DNA of 43,533 bases from the NCBI GenBank assembly GCA_025923195.1, contig JAICGJ010000022.1, positions 1 through 43,533 on the forward strand, read 5' to 3'. The translations under genes and the position numbers were made by a program. The notes under the pieces are model-generated. The model was not told the DNA's origin. It worked only from the letters and a program-made list of their open reading frames with translations, and did not search any database. Source of the stretch: Chryseolinea sp. (GTDB lineage: Bacteria > Bacteroidota > Bacteroidia > Cytophagales > Cyclobacteriaceae). Shown here piece after piece: positions 29,300-38,349 of this stretch. Within the stretch, counting starts at the first letter, position 1. Every line of letters begins with the position of its first letter.

Positions 29300-32290
29300 A
29301 TGAGCAGGGTATATTTTTGGGTATTCGTCTTTTGCCTTTTTTCGCCATTGCTTAAGGCGCAAGACCGTTTTTATTCCACCGTAAACTACACAATTAAGAA
29401 CGGTTTGCCCCAGTCCCAGGTAACAAGTTTGCTGGAGGATAAAAACGGGTATTTATGGGTAGGCACCCACGGAGGAGGTCTGGCGAGGTTCGATGGCCGC
29501 GAATTTAAGGTATACACAACGCTGGATGGTCTGCTGACCAATCAAATCATCCATGTTAAAATGGATCGCCATGACAATCTTTGGATACTGCATTCGAGGG
29601 GTGTAACAAAATTTAACGGACGTGATTTCAAGAGAATTGAAGCACCGAAAAATGCTTCGATGGCCACGAGACAAATGTGGAAGATGTATGAAGTACAGGA
29701 TACATTGTTTATCCTCTCAGATCGCGACAAAATCAGCAAGCTTTATAACGATTCCATTTACTATTGGGAGATGGAGTTGAAAAAGGAGGTTAGAAGGGTT
29801 CACGTTGGACCTAATGGGGAGCCATGCTTTTACATGGCAGACGGAACATTCAAAATTTCCCTTCCAGGAAAAACGGTAACATTCAAACGTGAACCAAAGC
29901 TTGGGGTGGCATTTAATTTCTTCAATTATAAAGGTAATATACTCTTTCGCACCAAAGAGGAAGTGTTCAAGCTTGATGTCGCTGAAAACAAAATTGTCAA
30001 AATGCCGTGGACCACAAGTAATTTCGTCTTGTTCTACGATGATGCGGACGATGTGTTCTGGACTGCCAACTCAACCGGCTTACTAAAAGAAAAAGTCTAC
30101 TCAAGCGAACTGATAGGAGATACGATTCTGCGCGATAGTCAGGAGACCACTGAGGTGCTTCGCGATTCAGAAGGGAATATCTGGATAGCTACGAATGGAG
30201 ATGGCTTGTACAAATATTTTGTACAGGACTTCCGACGTATGTCTCCCGACAATATGCGGGGCGTCATGGCGATCGAAAAAGACGTTGACAACAGTTTGTG
30301 GATCGGAACCATGCTAAAGGGCTTGTGGAAAATTAAGGACGGCAAGGTGACGTCCTATGCTGACGAGAAGGAGCCTTATCGGAACACGGTAAATTGTATC
30401 AGGCAATCACCGCAAGGAGAAATATGGGTGGGTACAAGTTTTGGTTTGGGACGATATAACCGGGAAAAGGATTCATTCCAGTGGTTTATTCCTCGCGACG
30501 GCCTTGCTGGCCCTGCTGTTTTATGTATGGAGTTTGAAGAGAACGGATTATGGATCGGAACAAACAACGGATTGAGTTTCTATGATGGAAAGTCATTCAC
30601 GAACTTCCGGCAAAAGGATGGATTGAATGACAATAGGGTGCAGGCGTTGCACTATTCGAAGAACCGGAAAACACTTTACATCGGTACTCCGGCCATGCTG
30701 AATACGTTTGATGGTGAATTTAAATCCGTACATATTCCTGAGCTTGTCAACGCTCCGATTCTCACTTTGCGGATGTACAGGGATTCTCAATTAGTCATGG
30801 CGACTGGAGGCAACGGAACCGTGCTATGGAATATTGAAACCAATCAGCGGAAAGTAATAACGACAAGAGAAGGCCTGCCTTCTGATTTTATATACTTCAC
30901 CGGCGTTGATGACAAAAATTATTTATGGATTGGAAGTGAAAAAGGCATAAACCGGATCTTGCTGGATGAACAAATGGAAATCGCGGAAAATCTCCATTTC
31001 AATGACGACAATGGTTTGGCGGGGCTGGAGACAAATCAAAATGCGATTTATCTCACGCCCAACGAAAAATATTTCGGCCTGATCGATGGATTATACGAGT
31101 TTAACCATGCCATGGATGAAAAGCCAAGATCATTTGATCTGCATCTTTCGGATGTCCAAATCTTATACGGTGAGTACACGCCGCGTGATTATGCTGACAG
31201 TACCGTTGGATTTTTCAAAATACCACATACACCATTGCTACCACCGGATAAAAATCACCTGACATTCCATTTCAATCGTGTCGATAAGCGCTATTCAAAA
31301 TCGGTTAAATATAAATACCTCCTGGAAAATTTTGATACGAAGTGGTCTCAGCCCTCCTCTCTAAATGCCGTTACGTACAGCAATCTTCCGCCTGGCGAAT
31401 ATAATTTTCGGGTCATGGTAACCAATAATATGGGGAGTTGGTCAGAATCGAAAATAGCATATCCCTTTACCATCAAATCCCCCTTCTATAGGACAAAGTC
31501 ATTCTATGCCGGGGTGATAATATTTATTGCGGGCATGATAACGCTCATCTTTTATATCCGAGTTAAACAGCGCATCGATCGGGCAATGATAATGGAACGA
31601 ATTCGGCAGCGGGAGCAGGAGGCAGTAAGAAAAGAAATTGCCCGAGACTTTCACGACGAAATGGGGAACCAATTAACACGTATAATAAATTACATTAGCC
31701 TTTTGAAGCTGAATGGCAATGGATACGCGAATGGAGCTGCCAAGGGTAGTACGGACCTTTACAGCAAGGTTGAAGATTCGGCCAAATATCTTTATTCAGG
31801 TACCCGTGATTTTATCTGGTCGATCGATCCGGTAAACGATGAGTTGTCCAAACTTTTTTTATATGTCCGTGATTTTGGTGAAAAACTTTTTGAAGAGAAG
31901 AACATAAACTTCAGGGCATTTAACGAACTGAAGGAGGAGGTGAAGTTGCCTTATGGGTTCTGCCGTCAGGCCAATCTTATTTTTAAGGAAGCCATGACGA
32001 ACGCCTTCAAATATTCGCAGGCAAAAAACGTGACGTTAACCCTGAAACGCAGCGATAATGACGGTTTTGAAATGACTTTTGAAGATGATGGTATAGGTTT
32101 TTATACCGGTGACATACAAAAACTGAATGGTCTTCAAAATATTCGAGAAAGGGCCGATAGAATCAACGCCGTCTTACGTATACACAGTGAAAAGAATCAC
32201 GGAACCAGAATATTGTTAAACTTTAAACCAACCAAATCCTTAAAATATGGCGCTACCCTTCAAAAAACGGGTTATGATCGTGGAGGATGA
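29300..32290 (+). CDS. Propeller-type sensor histidine kinase
   Basis: This 996-residue membrane sensor has a signal peptide (about 1-21) and many two-component-regulator propeller repeats (NGYLWVGTHGGGLARFDG, EGNIWIATNGDGLYKY and others). A Y_Y_Y domain (PPGEYNFRVMVTNNMGSW) and one membrane helix (about 735-756) come next. The cytoplasmic part is a HisKA_3 dimerisation domain with H785 (RDFHDEMGNQ) and a HATPase_c domain with N-box (EAMTNAFKYSQ, about 897) and G-box (DDGIGF, about 930). The propeller is periplasmic and probably senses a nutrient or glycan. The end overlaps the response regulator start by 44 bp. Confidence 0.92.
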   Translation: MSRVYFWVFVFCLFSPLLKAQDRFYSTVNYTIKNGLPQSQVTSLLEDKNGYLWVGTHGGGLARFDGREFKVYTTLDGLLTNQIIHVKMDRHDNLWILHSRGVTKFNGRDFKRIEAPKNASMATRQMWKMYEVQDTLFILSDRDKISKLYNDSIYYWEMELKKEVRRVHVGPNGEPCFYMADGTFKISLPGKTVTFKREPKLGVAFNFFNYKGNILFRTKEEVFKLDVAENKIVKMPWTTSNFVLFYDDADDVFWTANSTGLLKEKVYSSELIGDTILRDSQETTEVLRDSEGNIWIATNGDGLYKYFVQDFRRMSPDNMRGVMAIEKDVDNSLWIGTMLKGLWKIKDGKVTSYADEKEPYRNTVNCIRQSPQGEIWVGTSFGLGRYNREKDSFQWFIPRDGLAGPAVLCMEFEENGLWIGTNNGLSFYDGKSFTNFRQKDGLNDNRVQALHYSKNRKTLYIGTPAMLNTFDGEFKSVHIPELVNAPILTLRMYRDSQLVMATGGNGTVLWNIETNQRKVITTREGLPSDFIYFTGVDDKNYLWIGSEKGINRILLDEQMEIAENLHFNDDNGLAGLETNQNAIYLTPNEKYFGLIDGLYEFNHAMDEKPRSFDLHLSDVQILYGEYTPRDYADSTVGFFKIPHTPLLPPDKNHLTFHFNRVDKRYSKSVKYKYLLENFDTKWSQPSSLNAVTYSNLPPGEYNFRVMVTNNMGSWSESKIAYPFTIKSPFYRTKSFYAGVIIFIAGMITLIFYIRVKQRIDRAMIMERIRQREQEAVRKEIARDFHDEMGNQLTRIINYISLLKLNGNGYANGAAKGSTDLYSKVEDSAKYLYSGTRDFIWSIDPVNDELSKLFLYVRDFGEKLFEEKNINFRAFNELKEEVKLPYGFCRQANLIFKEAMTNAFKYSQAKNVTLTLKRSDNDGFEMTFEDDGIGFYTGDIQKLNGLQNIRERADRINAVLRIHSEKNHGTRILLNFKPTKSLKYGATLQKTGYDRGG

Positions 32291-32879
32291 TCAGGAAATT
32301 CGAAATAGTTTTAGTTTAATCGTAAACAGCTCGCAGAAATTTACAGTAGTCAACGCTTACGGCAATTGCGAGGAAGCTATTGCAGCGCTGCATCGGGATA
32401 AACCCGAGATTGTATTAATGGACGTTGAGCTGCCAGGGATGAACGGCATACAGGGTACCAAAGTAATTAAAGACAAGAGCCCTCATACAGATATAATTAT
32501 GGTGACAGTGTATGAAGACAGCGAACTGGTATTCGAAGCCTTGAAAGCAGGGGCGTCTGGTTACATTACCAAAAGCGCCAATTATATGGAACTATTATCC
32601 GCGTTGGAAGAAATTGTGAAGGGTGGTGCCCCTATGAGTAGCCGTATAGCCAGAATGGTTATAGATAATTTTCATGTGAACCCAAATTCGCCGCTTACTA
32701 AAAGAGAGACTGAAATTTTGCAGCTCATATCGGAGGGGAAGACATACACCCAGATCTCGGAGGAACTTTTTATCTCCAAAGAGACGGCAAAAACTCATAT
32801 AAAAAACATTTACTCCAAGCTTCAGGTCAACAGTAAATCAGAAGCGATCGCTAAAGCTAACCTTGAGAAATTGATCTGA
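32247..32879 (+). CDS. NarL/LuxR-family response regulator
   Basis: This 210-residue protein has a receiver domain (about 8-125) with acidic pocket (VEDDQE) and phospho-acceptor D59 (VLMDVELPGMNG), then a LuxR-type DNA-binding domain (about 148-205; LTKRETEILQLISEGKTYTQISEELF). It is the cognate partner of the overlapping HisKA_3 sensor. The first ATG, eight codons before a second possible start, overlaps the sensor by 44 bp. The SusCD locus begins 501 bp downstream and is the likely target. Confidence 0.94.
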   Translation: MALPFKKRVMIVEDDQEIRNSFSLIVNSSQKFTVVNAYGNCEEAIAALHRDKPEIVLMDVELPGMNGIQGTKVIKDKSPHTDIIMVTVYEDSELVFEALKAGASGYITKSANYMELLSALEEIVKGGAPMSSRIARMVIDNFHVNPNSPLTKRETEILQLISEGKTYTQISEELFISKETAKTHIKNIYSKLQVNSKSEAIAKANLEKLI

Positions 32880-33014
32880 TTCGTATAGGGTTACCGATAG
32901 GAGCGGAGTAACCAAACTAACGCATGTCAGTAAAGAATTTTCCCTATAATTTTTTTTTGGATAAATCATCCGTGCTGGGTGAATAAAAATTCAATTAAAC
33001 CGCATAACTTTATA

Positions 33015-33090
33015 GCAAATCCTTCAACACAAATGAGTAGATTTTCTTCATAAGTTTAGGTTAATGAAAAATTTTCTCTGAAGGATTTGC
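33015..33090 (+). repeat. 12-bp inverted repeat forming a long stem upstream of a terminator
   Basis: GCAAATCCTTCA (33015-33026) and TGAAGGATTTGC (33079-33090) are perfect inverted copies around a 52-nt loop. The last two bases of the second arm are also the first two of the terminator stem. The layout suggests a short RNA of about 100 nt or an attenuator. A TAACTTTA -7-like box lies at 33005-33012, close to where such an RNA would start. Confidence 0.5.
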
Positions 33091-33117
33091 CCCCTAGGTG
33101 AGGGGGCTTTTTATTTT
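33089..33117 (+). terminator. Intrinsic terminator 260 bp upstream of the susC-like gene
   Basis: GCCCCCT (33089-33095) pairs with AGGGGGC (33101-33107) around a 5-nt loop, followed by TTTTTATTTT. It is a strong plus-strand terminator. It is 210 nt downstream of the response regulator, so it either ends that transcript or a separate short RNA. Confidence 0.75.
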
Positions 33118-33380
33118 ATGCCTCTTTAGAGGCCCGATTCTGCCTTCTATCTGCTACCGCAAGCTCAAACAATTGCATGCTCAACTCTTCAGACCCGATT
33201 TTTTGGGTTCGGCCGCGCTGATGCACATAAAGATCCGCAAATAACCCATTATGCGTTAATTCAAAATCAATAATATACCATTGATTAGGTCATTCTTTTA
33301 GCAGGTGCATTTGGGACTTTTGATTAACATCCTCCCAACCGTTAGGATGGATATGAATAACTCAAACAAACCTAAAGCAC

Positions 33381-36300
33381 ATGAAGAAGATTCTACTAGC
33401 AAGTTTTTTATGCCTTGTTCACATCAGCGTGATCTGGGCGCAAGAACGAACGGTTACCGGAAAGGTAACTGCAGCGGAAGACGGGGTCCCTCTTCCGGGA
33501 GTTAATGTTGTCGTCAAAGGCACTTCATTGGGGACGGTGACAAACAACGAAGGCATCTATACCCTGAACGTTCCGCCCGGCAGTACAACATTGATTTTTT
33601 CTTTCATTGGTCTTCTCTCCCAAGAGGTTGAGATTGGTAGCCGTTCAGCTATCGATCTTCAGATGAGTCAGGATATACAACAACTAGGTGAAGTTGTTGT
33701 GACAGCAGTGGGTATCCAACGCGAGCGCCGGGCGCTTGGCTATTCGGTAGAGACCGTTAGCGGTGATAAGGTTCAGCAAGTTTCAGAACCGGATCCGTTG
33801 CGTGCTCTCACGGGAAAGGTCCCAGGCTTGAATATTATCTCCTCGAGTGGTGCACCCGGCAGCTCGACCCGAATAACGATAAGGGGCAATTCCTCCTTGC
33901 TAAACAACAATCAGCCGCTTTTTGTAGTGGATGGAATTCCCTATAACAATGACTTGGTCACCACCGAGGGTACTAACCTCAATACAGGCGGGCTTACACA
34001 GGGCGGAGCGTTTTCGAGCCGCATCTCGGATCTTGACCCGAATGATATCAAGTCGCTGTCAGTTTTAAAAGGAGCTACCGCGGCCGCGTTATACGGTGCG
34101 CGTGCTGCAAATGGTGTGATCGTCATTACGACAAAGTCAGGATCAGCCTCGGCCTCCCGAAAGGGTCTTGAAGTAACTTATAGCGGTACGTATGGTATAG
34201 AAAATATTGCAAACATCCCGAATTTTCAAAACAGTTATGGAACAGGTTCCAATTTCAATTACACCCCGGCAAACGGCTCGTGGGGTGCGCCTTTTATTGG
34301 AGCAACCCCTTATGCTACGATAGATTCCATCCCCCACTGGTATTCAGGTAGACCGGGGATGGGCGAATTCGATGGCCAGAGAGTTCCATACCGCGCGTAT
34401 CCTAATAACGTAGAAGACTTTTTTGAGACCGGTAGAATCTTTGAGAATTCCGTGTCGATAACTGGCGGAAATGAAAAGTCGGTTGTATCCGTCACACTAT
34501 CCCAACTTTCGCAAAAAGGTTTTGTTCCGGAAACAGAATTCCTAAGACATAATATCAGCATGGGCGGAAAAACAACGCTCGCCAACGGTCTGGTTATTGG
34601 TGCCAACCTGGCCTACACCCGTTCCTCCCAAGACGGTGTGCTCAGTGGTGCCCCAACCGCTACATCCGGTGATGCTTCAGCCTTTGCGCGCACGATGTAT
34701 TTTGGACGTAATTGGGATGTCCAGGGACAGCCATTCCAAAATCCAGTGGACATGGGAAGTGAATTTTTCATTGGAAGAGCGACCGCGAACAATCCCTATT
34801 GGGCCGTATATAATTCAGGTATTCGATCTAAGGTGGATCGCTATGTTGCAGCCTTTAACGTTGCCTATGATTTCAACGATTGGCTAAACTTATCTTATAG
34901 AGTTGGAATAAACGGCTTTGCCCAAAGTCAATATGAATTCCAGCGCCCTAATGGCGCCGGAAATCCCCTGGGTACCATGACTACCGTCGATGTTTTCACG
35001 GATGAAATCAACTCAGACCTTATCCTTACAGCATCCCGCGATATAAACGAAGACTTCTCCGTTCGCGCGTTAGTGGGATGGAATGTAAATCAGCGGACCA
35101 ACAAAGTCAGGTCATTAGATGGGGTGAGCTATGTTGTGTTTGATATTGACGAATTGACAAACCTCAACGACATAACTCCGAATCCAAATACAGGATATTC
35201 GAGAAGGCGCCTGTTTGGTTTTTATGCCGATGTTAATTTCGGATACAAGGACTGGGCATTTCTTACGCTGACTGGACGAAATGACTGGTCTTCGACATTG
35301 CCTGTCGAGAACAGGAGTTTCTTCTATCCGGCAATCAATGCGTCAGTCATTCTAACAGACGCGCTGAATATGTCTTCCGGATTTTTTAATCTCATTAAAT
35401 TAAGAGCGGGATGGGCGTCGGTAGGAAATGATACCAGTCCTTATTTGCTCAGCAATGTATTTGTCGTCAACGATTATGATAATGTTACTGAAAGTGCAGT
35501 TGCGCGGCCCTTCACTCCAACGGGCGGGCCGGCTGCAGGAGCAACAATTCCGACGGCAGGACAAAATTTCCTCTCGACGGATCCTGACCTTAAGCCGGAA
35601 AGGACAACCGAAATTGAGGCTGGAGTTGATTTGCGTTTCTGGAATGACAGAGCGGGAATTAATTTTACTGCTTATAACAAGGAATCAACAGATCAAATCG
35701 CTCAGATATCAGTGCCTGAAGAAACCGGTTTTCAGGCTCAGCTGACAAACTTTGGTTCGGTAACCAATAAAGGTATCGAGCTAGGTGTTGATTTTACGCC
35801 TGTGAAGACCCCCAGCGGATTTACCTGGACGATCATGGGTTCATTCACGAAAAACGAAAACCGGGTGAAGGAGCTACGTGCCGGTGTCAACGAGATTCAA
35901 TTCGGCTCGGGCTTCGGCGGATCCGTTGCTACCGTTCATAGGCCTGGTCAACCGTATGGCATTCTAACGGGTACGGTAGACGTCAGGGACGACGAGGGCA
36001 ATATGTTGATTGATCCAGCCACAGGCACATTTATTCAGGCGCTCGAGCCCCAGATCATCGGCGATCCGAACCCTGATTTTATATTGGGTATTACAAATAT
36101 GATTTCATTTAAGGGTATTACACTTTCCGCCGTCTGGGATCTTCGTCAAGGTGGTGATATATTTTCCACCACCGCTAACTCTATCTTGGGTCGTGGCGTG
36201 TTAGCGTATCAAGCTGATCGTGAACAAAATTCAATCATAAGAGGCGTTTATGGTAACCCCGATACTTTCGAGCCGTATTTGGATGACGCGGGTAATAAGA

Positions 36301-36644
36301 TTCCGAATCAAACCATGATTGAGACCAACTCACTCTATTTTGGAGAAAGTTTTGCCGTCGGCGGTGCGGATGAATGGTCAGTTTTCGATGCAACGACGTA
36401 CCGCCTGAGGGAAGCTTCCATAGTTTACTCCTTTCCCTCATCCCTGTTACAAAAAACACCTTTCGGCGCTATGAGTATTGGTGTAACGGGCAGAAACCTT
36501 TGGAATTACTCTCCTAACTTTCCAAAGGATCTGAACTACGATCCCGAAACCAACCAGTTCGGTGCGCGGAACGGACAAGGTATTGAGTATAGTACAACTC
36601 CGTCTGCAAGACGTTTTGCTGTTACGCTAAGAGCTACTTTTTAA
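33381..36644 (+). CDS. SusC/RagA-family TonB-dependent outer-membrane transporter
   Basis: This 1087-residue protein has a signal peptide (about 1-20), a carboxypeptidase-regulatory-like N-terminal domain (VTGKVTAAEDGVPLPGVNV), the plug domain with the SusC signature (LGEVVVTAVGIQRERRALGYS), a 22-strand barrel and the C-terminal Phe (LRATF) typical of barrel insertion. It imports ligands delivered by SusD, powered by TonB. The susD-like gene follows 19 bp later. Confidence 0.95.
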   Translation: MKKILLASFLCLVHISVIWAQERTVTGKVTAAEDGVPLPGVNVVVKGTSLGTVTNNEGIYTLNVPPGSTTLIFSFIGLLSQEVEIGSRSAIDLQMSQDIQQLGEVVVTAVGIQRERRALGYSVETVSGDKVQQVSEPDPLRALTGKVPGLNIISSSGAPGSSTRITIRGNSSLLNNNQPLFVVDGIPYNNDLVTTEGTNLNTGGLTQGGAFSSRISDLDPNDIKSLSVLKGATAAALYGARAANGVIVITTKSGSASASRKGLEVTYSGTYGIENIANIPNFQNSYGTGSNFNYTPANGSWGAPFIGATPYATIDSIPHWYSGRPGMGEFDGQRVPYRAYPNNVEDFFETGRIFENSVSITGGNEKSVVSVTLSQLSQKGFVPETEFLRHNISMGGKTTLANGLVIGANLAYTRSSQDGVLSGAPTATSGDASAFARTMYFGRNWDVQGQPFQNPVDMGSEFFIGRATANNPYWAVYNSGIRSKVDRYVAAFNVAYDFNDWLNLSYRVGINGFAQSQYEFQRPNGAGNPLGTMTTVDVFTDEINSDLILTASRDINEDFSVRALVGWNVNQRTNKVRSLDGVSYVVFDIDELTNLNDITPNPNTGYSRRRLFGFYADVNFGYKDWAFLTLTGRNDWSSTLPVENRSFFYPAINASVILTDALNMSSGFFNLIKLRAGWASVGNDTSPYLLSNVFVVNDYDNVTESAVARPFTPTGGPAAGATIPTAGQNFLSTDPDLKPERTTEIEAGVDLRFWNDRAGINFTAYNKESTDQIAQISVPEETGFQAQLTNFGSVTNKGIELGVDFTPVKTPSGFTWTIMGSFTKNENRVKELRAGVNEIQFGSGFGGSVATVHRPGQPYGILTGTVDVRDDEGNMLIDPATGTFIQALEPQIIGDPNPDFILGITNMISFKGITLSAVWDLRQGGDIFSTTANSILGRGVLAYQADREQNSIIRGVYGNPDTFEPYLDDAGNKIPNQTMIETNSLYFGESFAVGGADEWSVFDATTYRLREASIVYSFPSSLLQKTPFGAMSIGVTGRNLWNYSPNFPKDLNYDPETNQFGARNGQGIEYSTTPSARRFAVTLRATF

Positions 36645-36663: not shown

Positions 36664-38349
36664 ATGAAATCGAAATTCTATAGAATACTTGCAGTATTGG
36701 CCTGCATTACCTTGCTAAGCTGTGAAAAGGATTTTCTGGATATAAATGATGACCCCAATAATCCATTGGACGTTTCCCTCGAGTTACTGCTTCCGTCTGC
36801 TCAATTGGATCTGGCAGGCACCCTGGGGACGAATGGCGGCGGATTGTCGTACATAACCACAATATATATGTCTCAGTGGGTTGAGCGTAGACCTACTACG
36901 AACGATTATGCCATTCAGGGATCCGATTTTGGAAATACAGCACCTTGGCTGGTTCTATATACACGCGCATTGGCCGATATGGAAATTATCATCAAAAAAG
37001 GCACCGAGCTGGAGGCGCACCCTTATGTGGGAATGTGTCAGGTGATGAAGGCATATGCATATAGCTTAATGGTTGATATTTGGGCCGATGTGCCATTCAG
37101 TGAAGCTCACAAAGAGGATATCTTGTTACCTATTTATGATCAAGGTGAAGACATTTATCCTCAGCTCTTTGCATTACTGGATCAAGGAATTGAGAACCTT
37201 GAAAGAGAATCGGTCTTTGAAGTTGGAAATGATGACCTGTTCTATGGTGGTGACACAGAATTGTGGGTGAAGTTTGCGAATTCAGTGAAGCTGAAAATGT
37301 ACAATCAGATCCGCAAGGTTCAGAATGTTTCGGCTGAAGTGACAGCATTACTGAGCGAGGGTAATCTGATCAGCGATGAATCCGAAGATTTTCAAATGGC
37401 TTATGGTACAAGCGCTGGTCCGGACAATCGAAATCCAGGGTATGCCCAGGAATGGAACGCGGGTGGAGCTAACTATCAAATCAGTCCGTTTTTCTACGAA
37501 ACCATGGCCAACATGAATACTTTTAACCATCGCAACTACGGCGGTGATATAGACATCGAAGATCCGCGGATTCCCTATTATTTCTATAATCAGATAGCCG
37601 AAGTAAGCGCTGATGATTCACCTGGAAATCCTTGCAGCTATTGCTACGGATATGTTGATGCGGCCTCTGGAAATTTTATCACGATGGTTCCTGAACTGGA
37701 AGGTACAGGAATGGTGTCGATATTTAGCTTTTCGCTCAATATTGATCCCAATGAAGGTTATGACCAGGGAGCGTCTCAGACGGTTTCCGGATTGTATCCG
37801 TTGGGTGGTGAATATGATGACGGCGAAGGGGGCCCATCCTCGTTCGACCGGGGCAATCCACAAGTTCCCCAGCGTTTGTTGACGCATTATGCACTCAAAT
37901 TTATCGAAGCGGAGCTTTACTTGACAAACGTTGTTACTGGAGACCATCGCGCAGCGCTGGAGGAGGCAATTTGGGCTTCGTTCTCTAAAGTGAATGAGAT
38001 CGCCGGGAGCGTAGGATCACCGTTAATCGCAGATGATGACATCGCCGACTATGTGGACGCAGTACTGGCGGACTATGATACCGATGACGACGCGGGAAAG
38101 CTCGAGCATATTATGACGCAGAAGTGGATTGCCAGTTTTGGTTGGGGGGCGGATTTATACACCGACTATCGAAGGACAGGCTTTCCAGTGTTGCATGATG
38201 CCAATACCGACGATCTGACCTTTACGGTCCGAAACAGGGAATTTCCCAACTCATTTCCCTGGCCCACGGCAAATTTACAAGTCAATAGCAATGCACCCGA
38301 TCAGAAGGTTGTAGCCAGCGAGGACGCCAAACCATTTTGGATGAATTAA
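36664..38349 (+). CDS. SusD/RagB-family nutrient-binding lipoprotein
   Basis: This 561-residue lipoprotein has a signal peptide ending in ITLLSC (Cys about residue 20). The TPR-like helical fold and the C-terminal block QKWIASFGWGADLYTDYRRTGFP indicate the SusD-like_2 subfamily. It caps the SusC channel on the cell surface and binds the ligand. The substrate is not visible from the sequence; no glycoside hydrolase lies in the window. Confidence 0.93.
   Translation: MKSKFYRILAVLACITLLSCEKDFLDINDDPNNPLDVSLELLLPSAQLDLAGTLGTNGGGLSYITTIYMSQWVERRPTTNDYAIQGSDFGNTAPWLVLYTRALADMEIIIKKGTELEAHPYVGMCQVMKAYAYSLMVDIWADVPFSEAHKEDILLPIYDQGEDIYPQLFALLDQGIENLERESVFEVGNDDLFYGGDTELWVKFANSVKLKMYNQIRKVQNVSAEVTALLSEGNLISDESEDFQMAYGTSAGPDNRNPGYAQEWNAGGANYQISPFFYETMANMNTFNHRNYGGDIDIEDPRIPYYFYNQIAEVSADDSPGNPCSYCYGYVDAASGNFITMVPELEGTGMVSIFSFSLNIDPNEGYDQGASQTVSGLYPLGGEYDDGEGGPSSFDRGNPQVPQRLLTHYALKFIEAELYLTNVVTGDHRAALEEAIWASFSKVNEIAGSVGSPLIADDDIADYVDAVLADYDTDDDAGKLEHIMTQKWIASFGWGADLYTDYRRTGFPVLHDANTDDLTFTVRNREFPNSFPWPTANLQVNSNAPDQKVVASEDAKPFWMN

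Follow-up and report, generated by a model that had tools for sequence, protein, structure and literature searches.

A predicted small RNA antisense to susC start regions, encoded between a response regulator gene and susC in Chryseolinea

The stretch of DNA analysed here (the window, 43,533 nucleotides) is contig 22 of a 6.57-Mb genome of Chryseolinea sp., whose nearest named relative, judged by the response regulator (98% identity), is Chryseolinea sp. H1M3-3 (locus L018). A sensor kinase gene, a response regulator gene, a structured intergenic element, susC and a susD-like gene follow one another in this order, with the following features:

29300–32290, plus strand: sensor histidine kinase with Reg_prop and Y_Y_Y domains, the candidate signal input (ORF and domain search)
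32247–32879, plus strand: response regulator of the LuxR/NarL type (ORF, domain search and homologue search)
32966–32982, no strand: palindrome TCATCC-GTGCT-GGGTGA, a candidate regulator-binding site by its position
33017–33114, ends approximate, plus strand: predicted small RNA (covariance model match at 33014–33114, 103.1 bits; fold)
33017–33026, plus strand: 5' arm of the outer stem, AAATCCTTCA (covariation, helices 1–3)
33047–33068, plus strand: core hairpin, made up of TTCAT (33047–33051), the loop AAGTTTAGGTTA (33052–33063) and ATGAA (33064–33068) (near-invariant in alignments; stem conserved without covariation; target pairing)
33055–33062: proposed seed TTTAGGTT, accompanied by CTTCAT, which pairs with ATGAAG
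33079–33088, plus strand: 3' arm of the outer stem, TGAAGGATTT (covariation, helices 1–3)
33089–33117, plus strand: intrinsic terminator, GCCCCCTAGGTGAGGGGGC and a T run (terminator prediction and covariation)
33369–33376, plus strand: AACCTAAA in the susC leader, 4 nt before the ATG, the predicted target site of the small RNA
33381–36644, plus strand: susC, encoding a SusC/RagA TonB-linked outer-membrane protein (TIGR04056, 605.8 bits)
36664–38349, plus strand: susD-like gene (PF12771)

Between the regulator and susC the plus strand holds no open reading frame of at least 80 amino acids, the shortest length considered, in agreement with an earlier note on this DNA. The minus strand carries a decayed frame without a start codon at 33119–33289 (QWYIIDFELTHNGLFADLYVHQRG...), which has no Pfam match and of which the first part alone is kept in L018 (61.5% over 26 amino acids). 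A small hairpin, CATCCT..AGGATG, occupies 33328–33349 of the susC leader, and the susC promoter may lie around it; parts of this leader (query positions 392–497 of a DNA search) have matches in two other genomes, G093 and G136. The response regulator itself is 80–98% identical across 46 homologous loci, including those of relatives in which the element comes after it. Because the protein is so strikingly conserved over these loci and the RNA does not lie close behind it in most of them, its role is probably wider than the control of a small RNA.

From the letters of the window, the earlier note had described the element as a -7-like box, a perfect 12-bp inverted repeat, a strong terminator and a small hairpin in succession. 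The first three are indeed there: the box reads TAACTTTA at 33005–33012, the repeat spans 33015–33026 and 33079–33090, and the terminator consists of a hairpin at 33089–33107 followed by TTTTTATTTT. No other perfect pair of 12-mers in the window is separated by 70 nt or less (block shuffling of the window, done 50 times, produced 0.2 such pairs on average and never more than 2), and the fold of 33005–33133, at -37.1 kcal/mol (z -3.05), was matched in stability by none of 200 shuffles. The small hairpin at 33120–33133 has to be struck from the element, being missing by eye from the other rows of the alignment and lying inside the decayed minus-strand frame. The most conserved part, which had gone unmentioned, is the loop core at about 33046–33066: the outer stem encloses a nearly invariant CUUCAUAAGUUUAGGUUAAUG.

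A DNA search of 148 genomes of the family found 17 places in 13 genomes, 13 of them within 33006–33128, two longer and two confined to the susC leader. One of these 13 genomes, G085 (L012), is a chance match from which the core is absent. In alignments the core, TTCATAAGTTTAGGTTAATG, is almost the same in every sequence, and the arms vary. A covariance model built from 10 homologues, picked for good alignment, had matches at E 0.05 in 25 of the 146 family genomes searched (3.4e-4 or lower in 12 of them) and, at E 0.005 under strict filters by which weak matches are lost, in six genomes of a phylum sample of 395. Two phylum matches outside the family (G503 and G212) do not have the core and were dropped as chance. 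The genomes that bear the RNA belong to one family of Cytophagales, within which the 12 genomes span six genera. Short fragments of the core also stand behind the regulator at two loci, L060 and L061.

Among 19 sequences aligned by fitting to the covariance model, a procedure that favours the structure, 93.2% of cells pair, and changes on both sides occur in 15 of 21 pairs, in the outer stem and the terminator (6.3 in shuffled alignments, 2–5 in slid structures, and no value as high in 500 shuffles). The paired arms, on whose conservation the earlier note had made its proposal depend, are kept through covariation. The short stem that closes the loop has no covariation among these 19 sequences and is itself conserved. 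It had also been proposed that the long stem and the terminator compete for two shared bases. The bases are common to both stems in the window, but relatives do not preserve the shared outermost pairs (33015/33090 and 33016/33089): covariation in the stem begins at about 33017, and the outermost modelled pair forms in just half of the sequences.

Upstream of the stem there are signals suggestive of separate transcription. A TTT(A/G) box stands 4 nt 5' of the outer stem in the window and, by eye, at the same position in 16 of the 19 sequences; the 5' end of the RNA was placed from this -7-like box and the 3' end within the T run. Some 22–25 nt further upstream of the box lies the palindrome, TCAWCC-N5-GGGTGA, the exact form of which occurs in 24 of 410 loci, 23 times in the upstream region of the element (10 distinct elements, some repeated) and once as an off-match (L078). 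Its position suggests that the promoter of the small RNA is controlled by the adjacent response regulator through this site. No promoter of the sigma-70 consensus was found in 32800–33500. A putative promoter of its own, a conserved structure and an intrinsic terminator, the marks by which intergenic small RNAs are recognised, appear to be combined in the element.

What such an RNA might bind is indicated by its core, which is the reverse complement of UUAACCUAAA-CUU-AUGAAG and is thus antisense to a translation start region. The susC leader of the window reads AACCTAAA-GCAC-ATGAAG, and the duplex of the core with this leader, start codon included, is predicted at -14.6 kcal/mol (-8.3 for the loop alone). 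Of 14 susC leaders adjacent to the element, five have the full site (the window, L018, L025, L030 and L032), six have a near site by eye (L019, L020, L022, L023, L026 and L028) and three have no clear site (L027, L029 and L039).

The preference extends to susC genes elsewhere in the genome. Pairing of the core with 23 susC start regions of the window's own genome averaged -9.74 kcal/mol, against -7.42 for 639 other genes of that genome (P 2.5e-5); 22 susC start regions of G084, which also has the RNA, averaged -11.39 (P 3.3e-6). In G136 the 18 susC regions were barely better than other genes (-8.71, P 0.048; two of the 18 had been picked by pattern and 16 had not), and in G010, a relative without a model match and the sole control genome, 15 susC regions revealed no preference (-7.53, P 0.25). 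The comparison set behind the P values of all four genomes was genes of the window's genome. That genome contributed 23 of its 56 TIGR04056 matches, namely those, among 30 with loci, that reached the N terminus and a start; G084 contributed all 22 matches over the cut-off and G010 all 15. For each gene the ATG furthest upstream was used as the start, a choice that is surely wrong for some (e.g., L380). None of 300 shuffled cores reached the real preference in the window's genome and G084 pooled, and 23 of 100 did so in G010. The earlier note had advised a search for copies of the element before other susC genes; the sites that stand there are complementary to the small RNA and are not copies of it.

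Sites of this kind are also enriched when whole genomes are searched by pattern. In the 12 genomes with the RNA, TTAACCTAA-N(0-12)-ATGA occurs 115 times against 47 for the reversed control, and 94 against 47 (P 1e-6) once 21 copies of the RNA gene, whose reverse strand fits the pattern (13 identified by the model and 8 by eye), are removed. The same genomes contain a permuted motif 11 times and the reversal of that motif 46 times; because chance levels differ so much between such motifs, the reversed control is the fairer yardstick. The 134 genomes without the RNA gave 704 occurrences against 857 for the reversed control (RNA copies being subtracted only in the 12), and this lack of enrichment led us to reject the idea that the pattern is a general motif of start regions. 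Before genes of the window's genome in general, the motif is unremarkable (AACCTAAA ranks 25th among 168 permutations, AACCTAA second among 105). Since the 12 genomes are closely related and the counts are uncorrected for phylogeny, common descent may account for part of the contrast between genomes with and without the RNA.

Apart from 11 that were already known as copies of the RNA, all of the 115 places were examined, and 78 of these 104 open a frame of at least 100 amino acids. SusC-like proteins make up 20 of the 78 frames, a count that leaves out two loci (L258 and L271) that look SusC-like and missed the text criterion. The background, 641 genes of the window's genome, yielded 1 by the same criterion, a rate that may be too low given the 26 TIGR04056 matches over the cut-off in that genome. 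For genomes lacking the RNA, 25 places were looked at; a frame opens at 13 of them and is SusC-like at one, a proportion not significantly different from the 20 of 78 above (P 0.28). Secreted proteins are frequent behind the sites (58 of 78, against 217 of 641 in the background), and this feature is not specific to the RNA, as 8 of 13 frames in genomes without it are also of this type. In one genome with no listed model match, G019, there are repeated sites of the form TTAACCTAAACAAAAAA(AA)TGA (found 17 times with the pattern and twice with its control), which are perhaps a repeat family or the mark of a different small RNA.

The reading that we favour, with a probability of about three in four, is that the element is the gene for a free-standing small RNA of about 100 nt that blocks translation of susC, both of the adjacent gene and of others. 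The earlier note had raised a short RNA of this size controlling the SusCD operon, and this option is strengthened by the promoter-like box, the covarying stem and terminator, the near-invariant seed and the complementarity to susC. In the predicted transcript, the 5' end of the RNA would pair with the sequence immediately 5' of the terminator to form a stem-loop. What this stem-loop would expose is antisense to the start region of a transporter message: UUUAGGUU, which can pair with the leader motif AACCUAAA, and, 5' of it, CUUCAU, which is the complement of AUGAAG. The RNA would then most likely bind the start regions of several susC mRNAs, the adjacent one included, and thereby block the initiation of translation. 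We infer repression as the outcome because of the analogy with FopS (RF04319), 14 paralogous small RNAs of Bacteroides thetaiotaomicron that base-pair close to the start codon of messages for SusC-like transporters and so repress their translation, an effect antagonised by the protein RbpB (PMC11697453).

The same system supplies the grounds for supposing that the small RNA acts mainly by another route, either by binding or titrating an RRM protein or by activating its targets instead of repressing them. In B. thetaiotaomicron, RbpB binds FopS and also binds susC mRNA directly (PMC11697453), and the window's genome encodes a single RRM protein, of 115 amino acids, which may have a role under the favoured reading too. 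Yet the core is antisense to start regions down to the start codon, which fits occlusion, and it prefers susC regions, so that we consider it unlikely that another route predominates.

If the element were instead the structured 3' end of the regulator's mRNA, any small RNA would be merely a processed tail, as the earlier note had also envisaged. The element does come after the regulator gene, in the same direction and with one strong terminator, and one member of FopS is described as derived from a 3' UTR (PMC11697453). This origin is nevertheless quite unlikely, for the conserved palindrome and the -7-like box lie immediately 5' of the stem; most regulator loci are without the element (the core lies within 650 nt behind the orthologous regulator in 14 of 52 scanned loci); and at L021, in genome G093, the element with its palindrome and box stands 3.7 kb behind the regulator with other frames in between. 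Very improbable is the cis-acting leader or attenuator of susC that the earlier note had offered as well, with the long stem competing against the terminator: the element lies upstream of susC and the two stems share their two bases in the window, but the mutually exclusive pairing is not conserved in relatives, the 3' side (33120–33270) is unconserved and contains the decayed frame, the match to the susC leader lies 3.1 kb (G093) and 2.6 kb (G136) beyond the element, and L065 retains the element with a different gene next to it and no susC within the 3.5 kb listed. Because of the palindrome and box upstream, the distance at L021, the remoteness of the susC leader in G093 and G136, and the case of L065, the element is best regarded as a unit of its own.

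The free-standing small RNA that we propose resembles FopS in several respects. Both are terminator-ended, of similar size and devoid of an open reading frame. The R1' consensus of FopS contains TTTTTCAT and TTTAAGGTTAA, where the RNA described here has TTCTTCAT and TTTAGGTTAA (PMC11697453). TTCAT and AGGTTAA are common to the seeds of the two, and the local alignment is weak, 103 of 5000 shuffles being as good. The target class, translation initiation regions of susC, is the same, by in silico pairing in the present case, and several seed-bearing copies per genome are likely here too: the window's genome has one match to the covariance model and, by eye, two more RNA-like copies of the seed (L108 and L113). 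The differences are of architecture, setting and distribution. The 5' part of FopS is described as single-stranded, whereas here the 5' end belongs to a covarying stem and the seed sits in a hairpin loop; the RNA described here has a constant genomic setting, flanked by a response regulator gene and susC and preceded by a palindrome; and it is found in one family of Cytophagales, whereas the conservation reported for FopS is in Bacteroidaceae (PMC11697453).

Rfam yielded no match in the window at the gathering score. The FopS model scored 19.1 bits against the element (E 1.8), below its gathering score of 56, and was one of 13 matches in a permissive search of 32880–33380. Across the window's genome it had no match over the cut-off and seven weak ones, none of which is the element; at 11 loci where the copies are weaker or look like paralogues, no FopS match appeared up to E 10. 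Because the Rfam threshold is missed and the architecture differs, we do not class the RNA as a member of FopS, although on present evidence it would work like one. A comparable logic is known from Escherichia coli, where the small RNAs OmrA and OmrB are under the control of EnvZ/OmpR and act against outer-membrane proteins; the scheme proposed here, in which a regulator would control an RNA that represses outer-membrane importers, is likened to theirs by logic alone, the organisms being unrelated, and the control by the regulator is in our case suggested by position. GibS of B. thetaiotaomicron, as described in the paper on FopS, shares the R1 seed with FopS and differs in having a second seed, R2, and other targets (PMC11697453). 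At the level of search results, the literature on SusC and TonB-dependent transporters and small RNAs in Bacteroidota, including Cytophagales, Chryseolinea and Flavobacterium, contained no earlier report of this small RNA.

Bacteroidota import nutrients mainly through SusC/SusD systems. Their control by small RNAs is known from B. thetaiotaomicron (PMC11697453), and an RNA of Cytophagales that has a structure of its own, a seed like that of FopS and targets of the same class would carry such control beyond gut bacteria. It would also be a case in which cultured strains, such as Ohtaekwangia koreensis DSM 25262 (L023), combine a constant genomic position with a candidate regulator, and would make an ancient origin of FopS-type control in the phylum testable. 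A wider reading, tentative and on balance doubtful, is that the control spans the phylum: FopS in gut Bacteroides and the present RNA in environmental Cytophagales would descend from, or have converged on, a sequence antisense to both the leader and the start codon of SusC, displayed here in a hairpin loop, in several architectures (a long stem, a seed in the loop of a terminator, or a plain seed followed by a terminator) and under two-component control. Were this so, one signal could shut down a set of SusC importers jointly.

Among weaker matches to the covariance model and the hits of seed searches, further RNA-like sequences bearing the seed were noticed by eye. The two copies in the window's own genome, each at about position 1501 of its locus, end in a terminator, and that of L108 comes after a tRNA-like 3' end, which ARAGORN does not recognise. 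At the centres of L201, L202, L204 and L218, an RNA-like TCTCATAGGTTTAGGTTTAGGTAAC with a doubled TTTAGG precedes a terminator, the version of L218 being slightly longer; for three of these four, Rfam gave nothing convincing at a permissive threshold. On the minus strand at the centres of L256, L257 and L311, TCATAGGTTTAGGTTAA lies in the loop of a terminator-like hairpin, GGGTTC..GAACCC, followed by a T run, which by eye looks like an alternative presentation of the same seed.
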